64,000 bases of DNA from Moraxella sp. FZFQ2102 (GTDB taxonomy: Bacteria > Pseudomonadota > Gammaproteobacteria > Pseudomonadales > Moraxellaceae), in the NCBI RefSeq assembly GCF_024137865.1, contig NZ_CP099960.1, forward strand, positions 868,001 through 932,000, given 5' to 3'. Positions 17,169-48,063 of this stretch are shown here, in pieces. Position 1 is the stretch's first letter, and the number at the start of each line of letters is the position of its first letter. The position numbers and the translations under genes are program-made. The notes under the pieces are model-generated. The model saw only the letters and a program-made list of their open reading frames with translations. It was not told the origin of the DNA and ran no database searches.

Positions 17169-17317
17169 TTATTTTGTGTCATTTAAGGTAACGCTCAGCA
17201 AACTATATTTGCAATTAAACTAATAAATATTTTGAGATTTTTATAAATTTTATTGTACAATCAAGATGATTTAATTATTTGTTAAATCAAAATAATCAAC
17301 AATATAAAGGAATCACT

Positions 17318-17872
17318 ATGAAAGTTGAAAATAAAAAATCTGTGCAAATACAAAGACATTTTATCCGTATCCATCCCAAATGCATCCCTATGGCTGAACT
17401 GATAGGTAGGTACGGCGCGACTATGCCTATGCCTGTGCTAGATATCGACCCAGACCAACACCCACCTGTTGTTGTCAAGCTTTCAGCTACCGAATATCGA
17501 TTGGTTAAAAATTATCTGGCTTTTATCCGCCAAATAGATCAGCCAAGCATCAAGGTTCAAATTGATAAAACCAACGAGGCTGTATCGGATAAGATGCTAA
17601 TGCGCACCATAGGTTTAGAATTATGCGACTTGTTTGTTAGGCGGGGCAAAATAGAGCCTGATATTGAGCAAATGCTTTTTGAACAAAGCGAAGTAATTTT
17701 TGATGGAAAGAGAACACATCAATATATCTGCGCCTTAGGTGGTTGGAGCTACGATGACCTTAAGAATGCTCGAAGGCTGCAACGAGTAAAAACCGATCTA
17801 CCAGCGTTTAGTTTGGTTGATTATCTATACGCTAGTGGCTTGCCTACTAAGGGGGTTTACAATGAGCTTTGA
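17318..17872 (+). CDS. Small first gene of a three-gene recombinase module
   Basis: The 184-residue protein is unrecognised by motif. It contains HFIRIHPKCIPMAELIGRYG near the start, DQHPPVVVKLSATEYRLVKNYLAFI in the middle and a DNA-binding-like C-terminal part (DDLKNARRLQRVKTDLPAFSLVDYLYASG). The ATG follows AAAGGAATCACT. Its end overlaps the next gene by 11 bases, the same overlap as between the second and third genes, so the three are probably made together. It resembles by position the small accessory partner in multi-gene tyrosine-recombinase modules such as Tn554 (TnpC), RIT or gamma-mobile-trio elements. Homology to any of these is not shown. Confidence 0.6.
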   Translation: MKVENKKSVQIQRHFIRIHPKCIPMAELIGRYGATMPMPVLDIDPDQHPPVVVKLSATEYRLVKNYLAFIRQIDQPSIKVQIDKTNEAVSDKMLMRTIGLELCDLFVRRGKIEPDIEQMLFEQSEVIFDGKRTHQYICALGGWSYDDLKNARRLQRVKTDLPAFSLVDYLYASGLPTKGVYNEL

Positions 17873-20159
17873 TCGCTACTTGACACTCAATGATAAAAAT
17901 ACTGATTTAAGCTCACCAACTCAAGATGATCTGACATACCTGAGAAATTGTCTGTGCACTCTTGCATCTTGTGTACCACGCATCGCAGATCATATTCACA
18001 TCCCTACACATGAGCCATGTATTGTTAGTAAAGATAAACTTCATCAGATATTTCGCAAATATAAAGGAAGAATGACTCAGGATGAATACCATGAGCTACA
18101 GTCTGCTTTAGCCAGTTTATACCATGTCAATAGTGAGTTTGATGCCAATCACCCTGATGGGCAGTGGCAATTAATCGGCAAACTGTGCCAATGTCTGTGT
18201 TATTTTATCGCTCAAAATGATCGCATCCGCATCAAAAGCACCAGCCAGTTTCTACGGGTTCGCAGCAATCCAAGGTCAAATCATTATAGCGTATGGACGG
18301 CAAGTACTGATCTATTAAAAGCTGATTCGCTAAAGCTTATGCTGGATCGTATGCAGGATTTTGAGCAAAACGAAGCACACCGCTATGACTCATCAGAGCA
18401 AGCGATGTACCATGACTTGCTTCTCATTCTTCAGTCTTGCTACGAACAAAAACTTACCTCAGGGCGCAGCAAGAGTGCTAAAGAGCGCGGGAAAGATAAA
18501 AACGCTCGTAAAGCCGCCCAGTTTGAAGTCATTCCCCACGACTACGATGCTGATATTGATGCGATCGAGCTGTCTGAGATGTTAATCTGGCAGCGTGACA
18601 GTAGTCGAGAAAGCTTTGAGAAAATACCACTGGATGAAAGGCAAACCCGCACTGTCATTGGCATTAACAATAAACAGCTTAGTAGTGCAGAAAAATATGA
18701 CATACGGTTGGTGATCAAACGCACTCAAGCCGCCCATAATCACGCCAATCTGAATGAGTTTATGTCCGATACCAGTTTGCGAACTATGCCGATTGAGCTG
18801 GCTTATAAAGTGTGCAATCAGCTGCTATGGTTTTTTAATGCCGGTGGGCGTTATCAAGACGCGGCTGCATGGCTACTGCTTGTCATTTGTACAGGTCGAT
18901 TATTTGAAGAACTGATTGCAGATTTAACCTCTTGCGAGAAAACACATAGACTCATGGATCGCAAATCACCAAGGTTTGATGTCATAGTCACAATCAGTCC
19001 ACAAGCATCTAATGCACTCACTCAAAAATTCGACATGCTACAAAACGGTAGCAATACGCTCTCATTACCCTTGCCAGATGCTATTCATCAGCATATCATC
19101 AGCCAATACAAACACATCAATAAAAATGAAATGCAAGCACAAATCATTGAATTGATTGGTGTGCTAAAAATCGAATGCAATTTACCCTTATTAACTGAAA
19201 ATCGGCTAAAAAATCTGCTTTACAAAACTTTAATTTCTCAAACTGCTGATATACTGCTGGCATCTGTCATCACAGGACGTAATAACAAAAAGATGGCAAG
19301 CTCTTTTTATTGTAGTCTGCCGAAACAGAAGATATTAGACAACTACCTAAGTGCCATCAAACAAATTTCACCAGCATTGCATCAATTGCTATCCGTAGAT
19401 ATGCTTGATGCAGATGAACAAAGCCAAACAATCGGCAGTTATCATGTAGTCACACCACAGGCTGTAAGCAAGATCATGCAAGCACTTCGCGAAAACGCTA
19501 TACAGCTCAAACAACGTTATGACAACGATCATAGTAATGATAGCTTTATTGCATATTTTAATGCCTATGCAGCTTGGCTGTGGCAATTATCCTTGCTATT
19601 GACCAGTGTGCGCCCTGTGATTGGCTCACCGGGCGCTTTATCTCAATACGATCTTGATTTGGGCTTATTGCGCGTCAGTGACAAACAACAGCGCAGCCAT
19701 GGGAATGCCCGAATAGTGCCATTGTGTCCATTTTTAATCACGCAAATCAAGCAATATGTCGCGTTTTTACGCCATGTCAAACAAAGTATTGGGTTTCGCT
19801 CTTCAACGCTTGCTACCGCCATTGATCAAATTTTGTCGGGTGATCGAGCATTACTCAATACTGTCGATGAACATTTGCATCTAAGCGAAATCAGCCCATC
19901 AGCCATGCAGTCTATTGGCATCAAAGACTGGACGATGCCGGATAACTGGGCAAGGCATTTTGTGCGAAGTTATTTAGCCGAAAAGCTGGATGTGTCCGAA
20001 ACACTCATACTGGCGATCTATGGTCATGAACTGGCGGGACAAGAATTGTTACGCACGACAAGCTCACTGGGACTGGGTTCAATAAAAGGTGTCGCAGATG
20101 CTTTTGAGGTAATGGCAAAACAACTTCAGCTACAGGGGGTGATAGCGTATGGCGACTAA
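17862..20159 (+). CDS. Large tyrosine-recombinase-like protein, apparently without catalytic tyrosine
   Basis: This is a 765-residue protein with a long N-terminal region of no known domain. In the last 170 residues it has a tyrosine-recombinase-like core: Arg in LLLTSVRPVIGSPG, a beta strand with charged residues (LLRVSDKQQRSHGNARIVPL), H-x-x-R in NWARHFVRSYLAEKL and Gly-His in AIYGHELAGQELLRTTSSLG. The tyrosine expected about nine residues after that His is absent. Start chosen at 17862 (MSFDRYLTLNDKN) with AGGGGG upstream. It overlaps both neighbours by 11 bases. It may need the following 1012-residue protein for catalysis. Confidence 0.65.
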   Translation: MSFDRYLTLNDKNTDLSSPTQDDLTYLRNCLCTLASCVPRIADHIHIPTHEPCIVSKDKLHQIFRKYKGRMTQDEYHELQSALASLYHVNSEFDANHPDGQWQLIGKLCQCLCYFIAQNDRIRIKSTSQFLRVRSNPRSNHYSVWTASTDLLKADSLKLMLDRMQDFEQNEAHRYDSSEQAMYHDLLLILQSCYEQKLTSGRSKSAKERGKDKNARKAAQFEVIPHDYDADIDAIELSEMLIWQRDSSRESFEKIPLDERQTRTVIGINNKQLSSAEKYDIRLVIKRTQAAHNHANLNEFMSDTSLRTMPIELAYKVCNQLLWFFNAGGRYQDAAAWLLLVICTGRLFEELIADLTSCEKTHRLMDRKSPRFDVIVTISPQASNALTQKFDMLQNGSNTLSLPLPDAIHQHIISQYKHINKNEMQAQIIELIGVLKIECNLPLLTENRLKNLLYKTLISQTADILLASVITGRNNKKMASSFYCSLPKQKILDNYLSAIKQISPALHQLLSVDMLDADEQSQTIGSYHVVTPQAVSKIMQALRENAIQLKQRYDNDHSNDSFIAYFNAYAAWLWQLSLLLTSVRPVIGSPGALSQYDLDLGLLRVSDKQQRSHGNARIVPLCPFLITQIKQYVAFLRHVKQSIGFRSSTLATAIDQILSGDRALLNTVDEHLHLSEISPSAMQSIGIKDWTMPDNWARHFVRSYLAEKLDVSETLILAIYGHELAGQELLRTTSSLGLGSIKGVADAFEVMAKQLQLQGVIAYGD

Positions 20160-23100
20160 TAAAACCAACACCAAGAAATTACGATTCCTTGTAAAAGAAG
20201 CCTGTCAAATTCATTATGACAAGCTTCTTGCACGCTCTGCTGAACTTACTGATGATTCATATTATCAAATGTATCAGCAGATTTATAATGATATTATACA
20301 AAATCATCAAAATAGTGATCGCGTTAAGGTTCAGCAATATATTTTTCAGTATTTTTACAAGCTTAAAAAGGCGCTTGGTTTACCAATACCTCTACCGAAT
20401 TTATATATCAAGCCCAAACGAGAGAAAAATTCGATTGAGTCAGAAGACATCATGGCAAAAATCCGTGAGTCAAGCCTGATGGGAAAGCGGTTGCAACAAG
20501 CTTGGCGAGAAAATTTACATCAGATGAGTCCAGCTCAAGCATTTGCTGCATTGCACGCCAGTCTTTGGATATATTCTGGTGTGCAAGATGAGCAGCTTTG
20601 GCGGCAAATCTATCAGTATATCATTGATCAAAAGCCACTACTTAGGCTAGGCAATGCGCTAATACTGACTGTAGAGATCCCCAGCAAAAGCTATGGATAT
20701 CATCCCAGATTCAGCACGTCCATGCTGGAAGATGTGGCAGATAATGCCGACGCTTTGTTATTTATCACTCGCCATATCGCCATTGATGATGTCAGCTTGA
20801 TGTGGATTGCTTATATCAACCGCCATCTCCAAGGCAAAATGCCGACATTTGAACAAACCCAGAAGGCGTTCGATCAACTGATGCAGACCTGTCTGCAAAT
20901 CGACAGGCCAAAGCCCCATCACTTTAGTACAATACAAAAGGGTTTGTATCTTGCCAGACAAACCTTTAAAAATTCACAGCTGGATATGCAAATGTCTGCC
21001 ATTGTCAGCGATCAGCAAAAACACACGAGCATCAGTAGCGATCAGTGGAACAAATACCACTCACCAAGCTTTAAACCACTGATATTGGCACCATCCGATG
21101 AGCTGTTTACCACGACTTCGCCCATCAAAAAAGGTAAGGCAGAGCCAACCGATAAACCAGCTGTATATAAATCCGATCTAGTGCGTGAAATAAGAAATAC
21201 CCTAAATCAAACTAACGCCACAGCCATCGAATCGCTTAAGGTGCTTGCCAGTCAGACACAAATAAGTGCCCAGTTGGGTCTGATTTACTGGATAAGCGAT
21301 CTACTTGACGGCGTAAAATCTGCAGGTATCAAACGTCATCAATCTACAAGTGCCAAACGCTATTTAAGCGAGGTTGGCGATTGGTTTTTACATGTTGTGC
21401 AAGATCAAGACATAACCACTTGGAATGACGATGATTTTATCAATTTGTATGAAAACATTATTTATCATTCCAATAAGAAGAAGATAGGTTACACAGCAAC
21501 TGTACTCAGATCCTTACATCAATCTTTGCAAAGGCATTTTGTGAGCATTCCCGGTGTCGCAATTGCAAGTAAAAGCGATGGCATGGTGGTTGAGCCCGTC
21601 CTTGTCGCACCTATTATGTATCAGCATATCCGCAATCTGATACACTTATCGACACTCAGTGAGCATAATCAAAAAATATTGGACATCATCTTTATTCTTT
21701 TGTATCGCACAGGCATGCGGATCAATGAGCTCTTGGGACTTAAACTTAGGGATTTTGAGTATGATTACAAGCAAGAACAAACAGTCATCCTAAATATTTT
21801 GGTACGTCCCAATGGTTATCGTAGTATTAAATCTGATGATGGTCGTCGCAGGTTTTGTCTGCAAGCATTGCTCAAGCCATCCGAACTACAATTGGTGCAT
21901 GAGTGGTATTTGTTACGCAAACAAAGAAATGAGACTTACTTTTTGACGCTAGAGCACAAATCGAGTGCGCTTGAATATCATGAAATCCAAAAGCCAATCT
22001 CGGTGATATTGGATACTTTGCCTTATAAGGTGACCCCGCATGGCTTTCGCCATAATGCCATCAGTGTGATGGCGATGATTTTGGGTGGTGCGGATGCGCT
22101 CTTACCATATTTTAGTGATTATAGCAGCGATGAGATATTGGCGATTAAGCGCAAGTTTTTGGGTGAATGTCATCAGATATCGACAACAGCATGGAGCGTC
22201 TTGGCAGAATTTGCCGGCCATTCATCGCCCGAAACGACATTTTCTAGCTACATTCATGTGGCTGATTTGATTGCGTATAGTCAAATGGCTCATGCAACAA
22301 TAGAAATGCCTGCACCTTTAGTGGAGGCATTGACAGGACTTCGTCGCCAAAGTTTTAGCGACAATGGACGTCGTGCCTATGATAAAGTTAGCGGCATGGT
22401 GAATCTAAATGATATTCGCACATTGATAATCAGGCAATTGGGTGCCAATTGTTATCGCAGACCTGCTCGTGTTACACTACCTGCCATCAAAATCACGTCA
22501 CACAAAGCACCAAGCAAAAATCAGATGCCTGATATTTTAAGGATTGATGTACATGCAGCTGTGATGAAGTTTTTGGAGAGTCTGCAAGATAATTACTCAT
22601 TTGAGCACGCCAAACCCGAAGGCTTGGATTCGATCAAGGCTGAGAAGATTAAGAGTTATATTGACACGCATCGTAAACAATTAACATCCTATTTTGGGGA
22701 TAAAGGCAAAAAGAATCCAAATCAATATCTACCGATCACGCCCAAAATCAAGCAGGAAATCACTTTACTACACAATTTACTTAAAAAATTGGGTGATTTA
22801 TATCAGGCAGATCGCAAAGCATTTGATGATTTTGTGGTGATTTTACGCGGTGCAAGCTTTGTGAGCGGTCAGATGCGAATGCCTTTTAAGAATCGCTCGC
22901 AAGTTTATCGATTTGCACAAATCGCTGTCAAGCTACGCGACAAAAAGTATTGGCGGATAGAAGTTGCTGCTAGGTCTGATGTTAAAAAGCCTATCAATCT
23001 AAAGCAAGAATTGGTTCAATTAAAGCAAGAAACCACAATCATTGCCAAAAAATCAACTCGTGCAAATAGCTCTTATACGGGATTTTTGATATCAAATACC

Positions 23101-23187
23101 TATACCATCGATAACAAGAAGCATAATGGCGTTGCCATATTGCAACATGTATGCTTTTTATTGGTGGTGGGGATTGATGCTTGTTAA
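20149..23187 (+). CDS. Very large tyrosine recombinase
   Basis: This 1012-residue protein has the recombinase core near residues 490-720: Arg in LLYRTGMRINELLGLKL, H-x-x-R in TPHGFRHNAISVM, His in FAGHSSPETTFSSYIHVAD and the nucleophile Tyr in SSYIHV. About 450 residues before and 300 after the core have no family I recognise. Family integrases are normally 300-450 residues, so this is unusually long. CAGGGGGTGATAGCG precedes the ATG. A 17-base word at its stop codon (23186-23202) repeats one inside the gene (20366-20382), so a small 3' rearrangement is possible. Confidence 0.75.
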   Translation: MATNKTNTKKLRFLVKEACQIHYDKLLARSAELTDDSYYQMYQQIYNDIIQNHQNSDRVKVQQYIFQYFYKLKKALGLPIPLPNLYIKPKREKNSIESEDIMAKIRESSLMGKRLQQAWRENLHQMSPAQAFAALHASLWIYSGVQDEQLWRQIYQYIIDQKPLLRLGNALILTVEIPSKSYGYHPRFSTSMLEDVADNADALLFITRHIAIDDVSLMWIAYINRHLQGKMPTFEQTQKAFDQLMQTCLQIDRPKPHHFSTIQKGLYLARQTFKNSQLDMQMSAIVSDQQKHTSISSDQWNKYHSPSFKPLILAPSDELFTTTSPIKKGKAEPTDKPAVYKSDLVREIRNTLNQTNATAIESLKVLASQTQISAQLGLIYWISDLLDGVKSAGIKRHQSTSAKRYLSEVGDWFLHVVQDQDITTWNDDDFINLYENIIYHSNKKKIGYTATVLRSLHQSLQRHFVSIPGVAIASKSDGMVVEPVLVAPIMYQHIRNLIHLSTLSEHNQKILDIIFILLYRTGMRINELLGLKLRDFEYDYKQEQTVILNILVRPNGYRSIKSDDGRRRFCLQALLKPSELQLVHEWYLLRKQRNETYFLTLEHKSSALEYHEIQKPISVILDTLPYKVTPHGFRHNAISVMAMILGGADALLPYFSDYSSDEILAIKRKFLGECHQISTTAWSVLAEFAGHSSPETTFSSYIHVADLIAYSQMAHATIEMPAPLVEALTGLRRQSFSDNGRRAYDKVSGMVNLNDIRTLIIRQLGANCYRRPARVTLPAIKITSHKAPSKNQMPDILRIDVHAAVMKFLESLQDNYSFEHAKPEGLDSIKAEKIKSYIDTHRKQLTSYFGDKGKKNPNQYLPITPKIKQEITLLHNLLKKLGDLYQADRKAFDDFVVILRGASFVSGQMRMPFKNRSQVYRFAQIAVKLRDKKYWRIEVAARSDVKKPINLKQELVQLKQETTIIAKKSTRANSSYTGFLISNTYTIDNKKHNGVAILQHVCFLLVVGIDAC

Positions 23188-26988: not shown

Positions 26989-27816
26989 TTAATTTTTATC
27001 TTCTTTTTTACTTAGTGCACGCAACGTTTGAGCATTCTCGCTACTCACTACACTTCTTCCTGTTTGCTTTTCCAATTCTTCGCGTGCCACTTTGGCTACA
27101 TTACCACCTTGTTTGGCAACCTCTTGGCTTTGTTTAAAAGTTTCAGGATTAACCGCTTGCGAAATGTCTTTGGCAGAGGCTTCAGCCAGCATATTCAAAA
27201 TTAATTCGGTACTGGTCATATTGTCGCGCAGATTTTCTTTTTTCAAACCTTTGTATTGCTTGTATTCTTTAACTGTTCTACCTGACCATGTTTTGCTGAT
27301 GATATTGGTTAAAATGGCAAATTGTTGGTCTTGCACACCCACGCGTTGCCATTCGTCTGTCAGCTCTTTGCGGATTTCGATACTTTTTAATCGCTGATTT
27401 ATCCAATCGTCTGAATAGCCAAGATTGCGATAATCCTGCAAGGCTTGCTGAATGCCCAATTCAGGGTCTTGGATTTGGTCTAAACGCTCGCTCCCCACTT
27501 GAGCAAGCCAGATTTTGAATGGTTCGGCTTTTTTGCTAGGTATGGATTGGATAAGGCGTAAAATATGCTCTGCCGTTCCCGCCAACGTTTTGCGTTTTAC
27601 ACCACTTGTAGTTTCCATGGCTACCTGGGGACAATTTGTCCCCAGGTAGGCGTTAAGTTCTTCATCACGTTTGCGAATTTTTTTGAGATAGTCGGTTGGA
27701 TTAACCGAATCGGTCAATACGCCGACCACATCAACAATAGAAAAATACCATTTTTCCTGTTCGCTATCCCAATGGGAACGCACTTGATATTGCTCGAATA
27801 ATTGGATATTGCTCAT
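26989..27816 (-). CDS. BRO-N / antirepressor-like protein in the R-M operon (DinD-like)
   Basis: The 275-residue protein begins with a BRO-N type domain (LFEQYQVRSHWDSEQEKWYFSIVDVVGVLTDSVNPTDYLKKIRKR, about 5-110), seen in phage antirepressors and DNA-damage-inducible DinD-like proteins. A conserved helical part follows (QDYRNLGYSDDWINQRLKSIEIRKELTDEW), then GGNVAKVAREELEKQTGRSVVS. Such genes occur between hsd genes in many type I loci, with no settled role. Its leader duplicates that of hsdR, which suggests insertion as a cassette carrying its own ribosome site. It may regulate or inhibit the R subunit, but that is speculation. Confidence 0.8.
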   Translation of the reverse strand: MSNIQLFEQYQVRSHWDSEQEKWYFSIVDVVGVLTDSVNPTDYLKKIRKRDEELNAYLGTNCPQVAMETTSGVKRKTLAGTAEHILRLIQSIPSKKAEPFKIWLAQVGSERLDQIQDPELGIQQALQDYRNLGYSDDWINQRLKSIEIRKELTDEWQRVGVQDQQFAILTNIISKTWSGRTVKEYKQYKGLKKENLRDNMTSTELILNMLAEASAKDISQAVNPETFKQSQEVAKQGGNVAKVAREELEKQTGRSVVSSENAQTLRALSKKEDKN

Positions 27817-43778: not shown

Positions 43779-46700
43779 ATGAATAATTTTTATCTAACAC
43801 GCCAACTGCACGAACAAGACAATAAAGAACGATTGATTGAACAAAATCAACTCTTAACCGCTGAACACAAACTCATTATTGTACTGGCGGAACCGGGGGC
43901 TGGGAAAACGTGTTTATTGGATGATTTAGCCAATCAAGCAGGTGTTCAAAAACATACAGCAAAAGCTTTTGCGTATAGCAAACATGTCAATGAAACCGAT
44001 ACATTGATTATTGATGGCTTTGACGAATGGGCAAATAATCAAAATCATGATATTTATGAATTACTTGCCAAAATCCAAGATTGTCAACCTGAAAAAATCA
44101 TCTTATCTAGTCGTTCTGGCGAATGGTTGGCACAACACACACAGGCTTGTCAAGAGATACTTGGACGAGACAAAACTACTTACAAAAAAAATTATAGAAC
44201 AACATACTAATAATTTTAAAAAAATATTAACACTACATTCTGCGAATTATCTTTCTGAAGATTGCATAGAAATATTGAAAAAATATATTTCTGATAGTGA
44301 AGAAATTCTTAAAAAAAATACATCCAAAGAAATATTGGATAAGCATATAAATATTTGCACAAAGACATTAAATCAACATGATGATATTTTTTCCCACATG
44401 ATAACTTACAAAAAAATTCTAGAACAGCATGTTGATATTTGCAGAAAAATGCAGATACCCGAAATCCAAATCTTCTATTTATCTGCATTTGTGGAAACCG
44501 AGCAGGCACAAATTTTCCAACATCTTCACGCAGAACACGATTTCAAACAATTTTTACAGGCAACCAAACGCATTGAATTAAGTCCATTATTAGGCAACCC
44601 TTTGTTTTTCAAATTATTTGCTAATGCTTATGCTGAACAAAATGGGCAATTTACAACTAAACGTGCCGCATTTGAAAGTGCCATGAATTATTTGGCGAAA
44701 GAAGAAAATCTGAACTACAGCAACACATTGCCATATAAGGAAAAATTGGCATTAATAGAAAATTTATTCGCAAAATTATTGTTGTCAGGTTCTGAAGGTG
44801 TGGCATTATCGGATAAAGCAGAAACTAAATTGTTTCCGCGTATTGAAACGATTGTTGATAATCCTGATATTCGGCAAATTTTGCATACCCGTTTTTTTCA
44901 AACAGCTGATGAAACAGAACGCCACCGCCCAATTCATAGAATTGTTGTGGAATATTGTGCTGCCAAAAATTTGCTGGAACGAATCAATCAAAAAATCAAT
45001 CCATTACGTTTATCGCAATGCTTGTCAGTTATTGCACCCAATGGCGTGGTGCGTGAAGATTTACGCGGTTTGGTTGGCTGGTTGGCAGCATTGAGTGAAA
45101 GTCGTGAAATTCAAGAACAGCTTATTGAGTTAGACCCATACGCCGTGATTGCCAACGGTGAGCCATCTTTACTTTTGCCAACTTCCAAACGTAAACTATT
45201 GTCTAAATTACAACAACTTAATGATGAAAATTCTTATTTCCGTGGTAGCGATAGATGGTGTTCATTGAGTATATCTGGATTTTTTAACGAAGAAATAGTT
45301 GAAGAAGTAAAACAACTTTTATTGAAAAGTGAAGGCGATTTACAAGGATTATTGCTCGAATTATTGGTGGACACGCCAATTTTGTCTGCATTAGCTCAAC
45401 CTTTGCAAGACATTGTTCGCTATACCGATGATAAAAGAAAAGATTGGTACGTTCGCACACTAGCAGGAGAATTACTGTGTGAAATTCTCGACTATCCACA
45501 TAAAGATGAATGGCGGTTTTTACTAAAAGCTGGCGATACCCGATCGCTAAAAATTGCTGCCAATATAATGACAAATTTTCCCAACATTTTTCAGCCCACC
45601 GATTTTGAAGAATTATTACGTGAATGTGCCAAATTGTATCCTGCTGATAAATATGGGTTTCATCTAGTAATCGGCGAGCGTTATTTCATCCATGAATTCA
45701 TCGAAAGTTTGACCTTGCCAACAGTAGAATTTTTGTTAAATAAACTATCTGCTGATTTATCTTGCACTTGCAGTAAAAAAATACACGATTGCGATTGCCT
45801 ACATGGGATTAGCAATATTATCAGTATGTTGTTGGATAACTTTTTTGAGCATACACCTGAACCTTATAATCCTGAACAAATCTGGGATTGGCTAAAAAAT
45901 TTACATTTCTTGCGCAGAAGTCCAAGTAACAAAACGCTCTCTATGCAGATTTTGCAAGAAAACATCTCCTTGCGAAAAGAAATTTTAAGGTTGGCATTTG
46001 AGCAGGCTACGGAAGGAGAAGTTATTCACCAAATACGTTTGCAGAAATTTGATTGGTATGGGCACATTGGCTTACGTTTACAGCCGACAGATTATTGGTA
46101 TTTAGTAGATTTGGCTTTTGAAAAAGATAATGTTGAATTATGGCGATATTTTAGACAAATTCATGTTTATGATAAAGAAAATGAAAATAAAGAAAATCCT
46201 TTACGTCATCATATGCGACAACAAGCAATGCAGAAACCAAATTTTTTAACGGCTTGGTATTTGACAAAAGAAAGGAAGCAATATAAAGATAATTTCCAAG
46301 CAAAATACGAAAGAAGACAGCGGAGAAAGAATTCAAAAATTAAAAAGCGCAATATGCAGTATGCACTTGAAAATTATCAACAAATCAAGCATGGCCAAGA
46401 TTTGAAATTTTTAAAACATTTTGCTTATTTACTCTTACAAGACTTAAAACTTTTTAAGGAGAGTTTTGATAATGAGGAGTTGGTTAAAATGTCGCTCTTT
46501 AATAGCATCAATTTTATTGAGCAATATATTCCCAATCTTGATGAATTGATCGATTTAAAACGAAAATCTGAATTTTCAAATATTCAAACCGTTCTATATG
46601 CTGCAAGTTTAGAGATATTAAAACGAGAAAGAAATTTGAATCGCTTATCCAAAAAAGCATTAACAGCATTAAGAGTGCATTTAGATGTGCATTACTCTGA

Positions 46701-48063
46701 TGTATCTAGTGAAGAACGAACCGCACTACAGACAGAATGCAATCGCCTTCTTTTTTCAAATCAGGCAAGCATTGAATCATTTTTGCGAACCTATATTGAA
46801 CCACAATTAGTGGATTCTCAATGCAAGCATCCATGTGTTGGTTGGCTGTCTTATGATGAGATATTTAAACCATTCCAAAAAACTTTATCTCTGGAATGGT
46901 TGCAACGCTTTGATGATATGCCTGAATATGCTTACACCGAATTATTCAAGCAAGCAGCGTTACACGGTGATTTAGCTCAACTTAAAGCATTGATTGCACA
47001 AAAATGTACAGCGTTGGCTAAACAACATCCTTACAAAACAGATAATGCAGAATTGGAACAAAAGCGTGAATTTTGGTATTTACAAGCGTTCTATTTTTTG
47101 GATTCAGGATATGAAAGTTATTGGTATTGGTTACAACAAGATAGTGATTTAATTTTTAAAATAGACAATAATGTGGGTAGCCTGAAAAATAATGATTATG
47201 TGGTGTTATCAGCAGAAAAAATTGAGCTTGTGTTGAATACGTTTATTGATAAATGGGAAAAAGTAGATTTGCCTAGTGGACATAGTAGCAGTAGCCCAAG
47301 AGAAGAAAAAGCATACCGTTTATTGCGTGATTTGGTTTATAAAATAAATGATTCGCGCAATGGTAATCCTATTCCTGTACTCAAACGCTTATTGGCAAAT
47401 GAAAAATATCAGGATTTCTATCCCATATTGAAAAGCCAATTATTTCATCATGTTCATCAGCAAAAAATTAAAAATATTGCTGTACCAACAATGAAAGAAA
47501 CGGTTGATTTATTGGAAAATCATCAGGTTATTAGTGTGGAAAGTATGCGTGCGTTGATTTTGGAAGAATTGGCAGCGTATCAAGCAGATTTAAATGGCAG
47601 TGAATTCACCAGCAAAGATAGTTTTTATAATGGCGATAAACACGTTGATGAAAATCGTGCTACGCAAATTGTCGGTGAACGCTTGCGGTTGAAATTGGAA
47701 CGCTACGGTATTGATTGCAATTTAGAATACCTGATGAGTGACAATAAACGCTGTGATTTTACTTGTTCCAAACGCATTCACGATAGACAGAGATTGCTTG
47801 TAGTAGAAGCAAAAGGTCAATGGCATAAAGAACTTTATTCAGCGATTGAAAACCAACTGGTTCGCCAATATACCACTCATCCGAATGCAGAAAAGCAAGG
47901 GATTTTCTTGGTTTATTGGTTTGGTATGCAGGAAAAGTTAGCAGGTTTAAAAAATACAATGTCTAGTGCGAGCGAATTGCAACGCGATATTAAAAGTAGA
48001 ATGCCTGTTGAATTACAAGGCTTGATTGATGTTTTTGTGCTAGATGTTTCGGTGGATGCTTAA
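43779..48063 (+). pseudogene. NACHT-like ATPase with C-terminal PD-(D/E)xK nuclease, frameshifted at an A8 tract
   Basis: An N-terminal frame (43779-44210) holds Walker A LAEPGAGKTCLL and Walker B LIIDGFDEW, then SSRSGEWLAQHTQ. The remainder continues in another frame to 48063. Deleting one A from the A8 run at 44184-44191 joins them into a protein of about 1427 residues, reading TTYKKIIEQHT. A second copy of this segment (about 44405-44430) has seven A and reads TYKKILEQHV, showing which state is in frame. The long middle is helical (WLAALSESREIQEQL and onward). The end has RCDFTCSKR and LLVVEAKGQWHKEL, a PD-(D/E)xK nuclease arrangement. It lies 162 bases after zorD. It may be phase-variable, rescued by slippage, or dead. 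Confidence 0.75.
44160..44450 (+). repeat. Degenerate repeats inside the NACHT-like gene
   Basis: The segments KKIIEQHTNNFKKILTLH, KEILDKHINICTKTLNQH and KKILEQHVDICRKM, plus the preceding WLAQHTQACQEIL, share an xILxQHxxxCxxIL pattern. They are copies of one short unit. The DNA of the first and last copies is close (CTTACAAAAAAA then TTAGAACAxCAT-like). Confidence 0.6.

Follow-up and report, generated by a model that had tools for sequence, protein, structure and literature searches.

Open and closed alleles of an EruA-family NACHT gene, with breaks at the A tracts of a lineage-specific insert

A split gene of the EruA family

The window considered here, that is, the whole stretch of 64,000 nucleotides (nt) analysed from Moraxella sp. 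FZFQ2102 (GCF_024137865.1, NZ_CP099960.1, 868,001-932,000, forward strand), carries a gene of the EruA family that is split between two open reading frames (ORFs), ORF a and ORF b, which lie in different frames and join at a run of eight A residues (A8; Table 1). ORF a contains a Walker A motif (AEPGAGKT) and a Walker B motif (LIIDGFDEW), and beyond the shift ORF b stays open for ~1290 codons with its catalytic residues intact. The NCBIfam profile NF058535 ("NACHT domain-containing antiphage protein EruA") matches ORF a over profile positions 1-129 (E 4.3e-31) and ORF b over positions 129-1318 (1021.9 bits; curated cut-off, 1000), and thus the ORFs correspond to opposite ends of a single EruA family member. 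The antiphage role of EruA is a predicted one that rests on the name of this family. The original prediction, made from the letters of the window, had placed the Walker motifs in one frame and about 1290 further residues in another with the A8 as junction, and its coordinates and frames were right; the gene it called "giant", however, is of ordinary size for the family, whose usual length is ~1330-1350 residues. Among the PADLOC 2023 profiles, no match to ORF b was found at E 0.001 and only weak ones to ORF a (E 5.5e-05 or worse), and at E 0.001 neither ORF matched the Avs profiles. Promoter and terminator predictions showed no excess over shuffled sequence.

Relatives number 138 in the protein database (of which the best 120 were listed) and 118 in a genome scan, from which 80 loci were kept. 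Seventy of these loci cover the family length in one frame, one of them (L031) stopping at the end of its contig; seven are broken (L015, L044, L047, L050, L067, L078, and L081), and three lie at contig ends (L049, L057, and L070, the last with an additional in-frame stop just ahead of the match). The 70 loci, whose intact genes include those of Acinetobacter gerneri (L035) and Marinobacter algicola (L007), rule out that the two frames represent two natural proteins, a possibility that would have undone the original prediction. Another genus offers a case of a homopolymer break: the Lelliottia nimipressuralis relative (L047:8001-8200) is disrupted beside a T8 run in the early part of its gene. 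In Desulfoluna limicola (L081, 8001-13704), the EruA match spans 5.7 kb compared with ~4.0 kb usually and the longest ORF is 942 amino acids (aa), so that this gene is probably interrupted by ~1.7 kb of other DNA. Some EruA relative is present in 14 of 299 genomes of the bacterial family (window genome included; most of these relatives are distant) and, within the genus, in 1 of 22, the window genome itself; a first genome scan using ORF b gave no relative. Plasmid records hold no copy at the DNA level and 22 protein-level matches, all of <60% identity, and a search of phages and viral contigs gave one weak record and none, respectively.

Conservation was assessed in an alignment of 86 sequences: 15 came from the protein database and 71 from the loci, where only ORFs of >1250 aa were retained (nine of the 80 were dropped; L047, whose ORF is broken upstream, is included). 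A database protein and a locus may in some cases represent one and the same gene, so the figure of 86 does not equal the number of independent lineages. The Walker A Gly and Lys are present in 84 of the 86 (the other two having gaps), and D79, D82, and E83 of Walker B in all. Pfam NACHT (PF05729) scores 21.9 bits on the short ORF a, below its gathering score of 26.7, and the P-loop family NPHP3_N passes (27.8 vs 24.8). In a structural model built on the relative L035, the window allele not reading through, the N-terminal part is predicted to adopt a NACHT fold like that of the animal NLR sensors NLRP3 and NLRC4, and the fold matches include Avs4 and an AVAST5 filament.

At the other end of the protein, E1291, D1326, E1343-x-K1345, and Q1359 (numbering of P0003, the uninterrupted protein described below) are invariant in 86/86, and we take these residues to be the E, D, (D/E)xK, and Q of a PD-(D/E)xK motif. 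The model of this domain has a PD-(D/E)xK core fold, with restriction enzymes as its best matches among solved structures, and DNA cleavage by it is predicted; sequence searches of the PDB gave no convincing relative (best E 0.077 for the C-terminus and 0.048 for the whole alignment). Thus, the models and the order of the profile matches support what had been proposed from the sequence, namely a single protein with an NLR-type NACHT ATPase first and a predicted PD-(D/E)xK nuclease last.

Open and closed alleles at the A tracts of the insert

The window lacks a single uninterrupted EruA frame, but such a frame exists in a database protein, P0003 (10 member sequences, 1 contig), which runs for 1427 aa and scores 1122.2 bits against NF058535. 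P0003 is the same as ORF a up to the shift, the same as the window over the rest of the insert described below, and differs at two positions in the last 1200 residues. It is precisely the in-frame product, of about 1427 residues, that the original prediction had anticipated. A further protein, P0123 (3 member sequences, 8 contigs), is only 189 aa long; its first 179 residues are identical to P0003 and are followed by IHPKKYWISI and a stop, which is the third-frame reading of the window DNA from the end of a second A8 run, tract 2. Because P0123 is identical to P0003 for 179 residues, it must have passed tract 1 in frame. Tract 1 is therefore closed in the window and open in P0003 and P0123, whereas it is tract 2 that closes the frame of P0123. 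Three states are thus known, one of them open and two closed, each of the latter at an A tract. This comparison is made at the protein level, between the window DNA and the protein sequences of P0003 and P0123, and the search that found P0123 covered proteins of ~79 to 250 aa, that is, breaks in about the first 250 codons. By informal judgement, chance is a poor explanation for the position of both known breaks at the two A8 tracts.

Both A8 runs of ORF b sit inside an insert. The segment that follows the SSRSGEW motif and extends to the next YLSAF is exactly 24 residues long in 85 of the 86 aligned sequences, whereas it is 121 in P0003. The additional 97 residues are rich in lysine (15/97), and the DNA encoding them has a G+C content (GC) of ~24% compared with 35-38% on its flanks and contains degenerate repeats. 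One of these had been described as a second copy of the tract 1 segment carrying A7; the copy is real, although the repeat is imperfect (41 nt with 78% identity, and an exact block of 13 nt, at a spacing of 225-226). In the model of the relative, the insert site is a loop between helix 113-123 and strand 128-132. No other copy of the insert was found by DNA search in the 22 genomes of the genus; at the protein level, its sole match in the 299 family genomes is itself, and among database proteins of ~785-2497 aa it occurs in P0003 alone. The original prediction had missed the insert, the EruA family name, and tract 2 as the breakpoint of the other allele.

Table 1. Coordinates of the EruA gene and its features in the window
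Feature	Position	Strand	Remark
ORF a, N-terminal NACHT piece with Walker A and Walker B, 143 aa	43779..44210	+	Product expected from the window allele; NF058535 match
ORF b, open frame of 1350 aa with the remainder of EruA	44011..48063	+	NF058535 match; from its start to ~44191 overlaps ORF a in another frame
A tract 1 (A8), junction of the two frames	44184..44191	+	Closed in the window; in frame in P0003 and P0123
A tract 2 (A8), same insert	44311..44318	+	In frame in P0003; breakpoint of P0123
Second repeat copy containing A7 (44410-44416)	44404..44450	+	In the frame of ORF b
Lineage-specific NACHT insert, 97 residues in the open allele, ~24% GC, degenerate internal repeats	44172..44463 (approximate boundaries)	+	
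TGT (Cys) codon	45259..45261	+	Arg in 86/86 aligned sequences, P0003 included
C-terminal domain, predicted PD-(D/E)xK nuclease	47467..48060	+	E 47650, D 47755, E-x-K 47806/47812, Q 47854

Replication slippage and its alternatives

Taken together, we consider it rather probable that the window gene is a naturally occurring OFF allele within the EruA family, and that slipped-strand replication at the A tracts of the insert causes its on/off variation. Slippage at these tracts would switch EruA off and might also restore it. With the frame open, the NACHT ATPase would be held inactive until infection is sensed by the long middle part; the NACHT domains would then assemble, and the C-terminal nuclease would attack DNA. 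When the frame is closed, the first product ends at 143 residues (window) or 189 residues (P0123), and the protein would thus lack both its middle part and its nuclease. We infer slippage, sensing, firing, and reversibility. A bolder proposal, which we regard as doubtful, is that this lineage acquired an AT-rich cassette of 97 codons, either of whose two A8 tracts can shut the frame, and that an NLR-type immune ATPase has thereby become a contingency gene, a bacterial NLR relative with on/off control by two tracts, so that immune-on and immune-off cells would coexist in its populations.

Several observations weigh against replication slippage as a working switch. The A8 tracts are short, below the usual cut-off of 10 or more A/T, which is the threshold of PhasomeIt for phase-variable tracts (available part of PMC6321876); in many genomes, selection against A/T runs is evident from nine (available part of PMC1088944), and a tract of eight is shorter than that, which argues against high-rate switching. 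When the codons of the insert were shuffled with the amino acids preserved, 1.08 A/T runs of at least 8 were expected on average and 2 were observed (P = 0.25), and in the other 1199 codons 0.19 were expected and none observed. The codons of the insert thus explain its slippery runs, the A tracts are no commoner than these codons predict, and selection for tracts is unsupported by the shuffle. Furthermore, the window allele has a Cys where all 86 aligned sequences have an Arg. Finally, no reopened allele is seen among the three known states, and, as only one of these states has tract 1 closed, the simplest history is two closures of an open ancestor.

Some of these points can be read in favour of simple decay, in which A runs prone to error came in with the AT-rich insert, which may also have weakened the protein, and the gene is disappearing from strains through ordinary indels, with no functional switching. 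Two independent closed states without a reopening, the loss of an otherwise invariant Arg, and A runs accounted for by codons would all follow, and 7 of the 80 relatives are also broken, one of them beside a T8 run. However, past the shift ORF b has remained open for ~1290 codons with its catalytic residues intact, and an open allele that bears the insert exists and keeps all motifs. We therefore regard decay as possible but unlikely.

Transcriptional slippage, which the original prediction had offered beside ON/OFF variation, would let the window allele yield some full-length protein by a programmed event at A8. Slippage of this kind at A runs is documented to rescue cut genes in bacteria, for example at the A11 of Citrobacter rodentium tssM (available part of PMC4256274), but A8 is shorter than A9 and A11, and the open allele requires no such event. 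Since the relatives are without the whole insert, the closed product is not conserved, which also counts against it. Open and closed alleles at A8 have been borne out, and, of the two options, transcriptional slippage is the weaker one because A8 lies below the nine A/T from which selection is evident in many genomes (available part of PMC1088944); we hold it to be very improbable.

The A8 in the window could also be an error, the gene of the living strain being open. Sequencing and assembly errors typically occur at homopolymers, and the near-identical P0003 is open, but the other 20 coding homopolymers of at least 7 counted in the window, tract 2 included, sit in ORFs that continue past them, and another closed allele (P0123) is present in 8 contigs, so that we give this explanation very little credence as well. 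A -1 ribosomal shift at A8 would not help, because the third frame stops at 44195-44197.

The preferred reading, a slippage-closed EruA gene, is best placed beside systems already known. The window gene resembles EruA as defined by NF058535 in the end-to-end match of its halves, its length class, and its architecture, and differs from it by the 97-residue NACHT insert and the frame break. Avs (AVAST) proteins likewise use a STAND-type ATPase in phage defence, but in Avs the effector domain precedes the ATPase; the window gene has the opposite order, NACHT first and predicted nuclease last. The bNACHT proteins, for example bNACHT25, also unite a DNase effector with a NACHT core in a single protein (the nuclease of the window gene being predicted), but bNACHT25 has its effector N-terminal and its sensor C-terminal (available part of PMC12169576). 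In phase-variable restriction and other genes of Neisseria (PMC6789123) and Campylobacter (PMC6321876), both sources being available in part, coding homopolymers likewise set open and closed frames; here the A tracts are shorter, fall within the NACHT-gene insert particular to this lineage, and are putative switches. C. rodentium tssM1 is likewise cut near an A run, but there an A11 and transcriptional slippage are at work (available part of PMC4256274), whereas the window has an A8 and an open DNA allele exists.

Both the EruA family and homopolymer phase variation of defence genes are already known. In the open-licence literature, we found no paper joining EruA and NACHT, the one paper using the name EruA concerning an unrelated EruA; the wording EruA or HyoA is absent from the further papers retrieved and from the available part of PMC13092281; and, among the papers listed and judged by title, no phase-variable NACHT gene is described. 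Nor did these searches yield a bacterial NACHT gene whose alleles are open or closed at two tracts within an insert confined to one lineage. In the absence of phage, an immune protein with the potential to kill its own cell is a burden. Should slippage toggle a NACHT defence gene, sister cells, and likewise the isolates of a single strain, would differ in phage resistance, and functional defence genes would be annotated as dead. The case also makes it testable whether a lineage-specific insert is tolerated, and what it does, in a NACHT segment of otherwise invariant length.

Zorya and the surrounding island

The EruA gene starts 162 nt after the genes of a type I Zorya system, whose ORFs are uninterrupted. 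The original prediction had described a defence NTPase right behind Zorya; the adjacency holds, but a conserved link does not, because tblastn with ZorA-D of the window (E 1e-5) gave no match in the loci of the 80 relatives, with flanks of up to 8 kb where contigs allow. Zorya is thus only an island neighbour, and the idea that EruA is a Zorya accessory gene with conserved ZorABCD linkage is rejected (0/80 loci).

Both lie in a defence island (14595-49746) beside tRNA-Gly, which contains a tyrosine integrase, a type I restriction system on the reverse strand, a UmuD/UmuC-like pair, the type I Zorya genes, EruA, and a Fic gene, and whose GC is ~40% compared with 47% and 44% on its sides. The tRNA region matches Acinetobacter at 95.5%, Moraxella osloensis (44%) ranks among the best matches of a UmuC-like protein, and each of the Neisseria DNA uptake words occurs 0-1 times in the window. 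Within the type I restriction cluster, a 275-aa ORF (26989-27816) has a weak match to the DNA damage response protein DdrC (E 5.3e-06, below the cut-off). Three ORFs (197, 780, and 1012 aa) lie side by side at 17279-23187; the first two have no NCBIfam match and the second also no Pfam match, but the third carries a phage-integrase domain, and the trio may be a mobility module.
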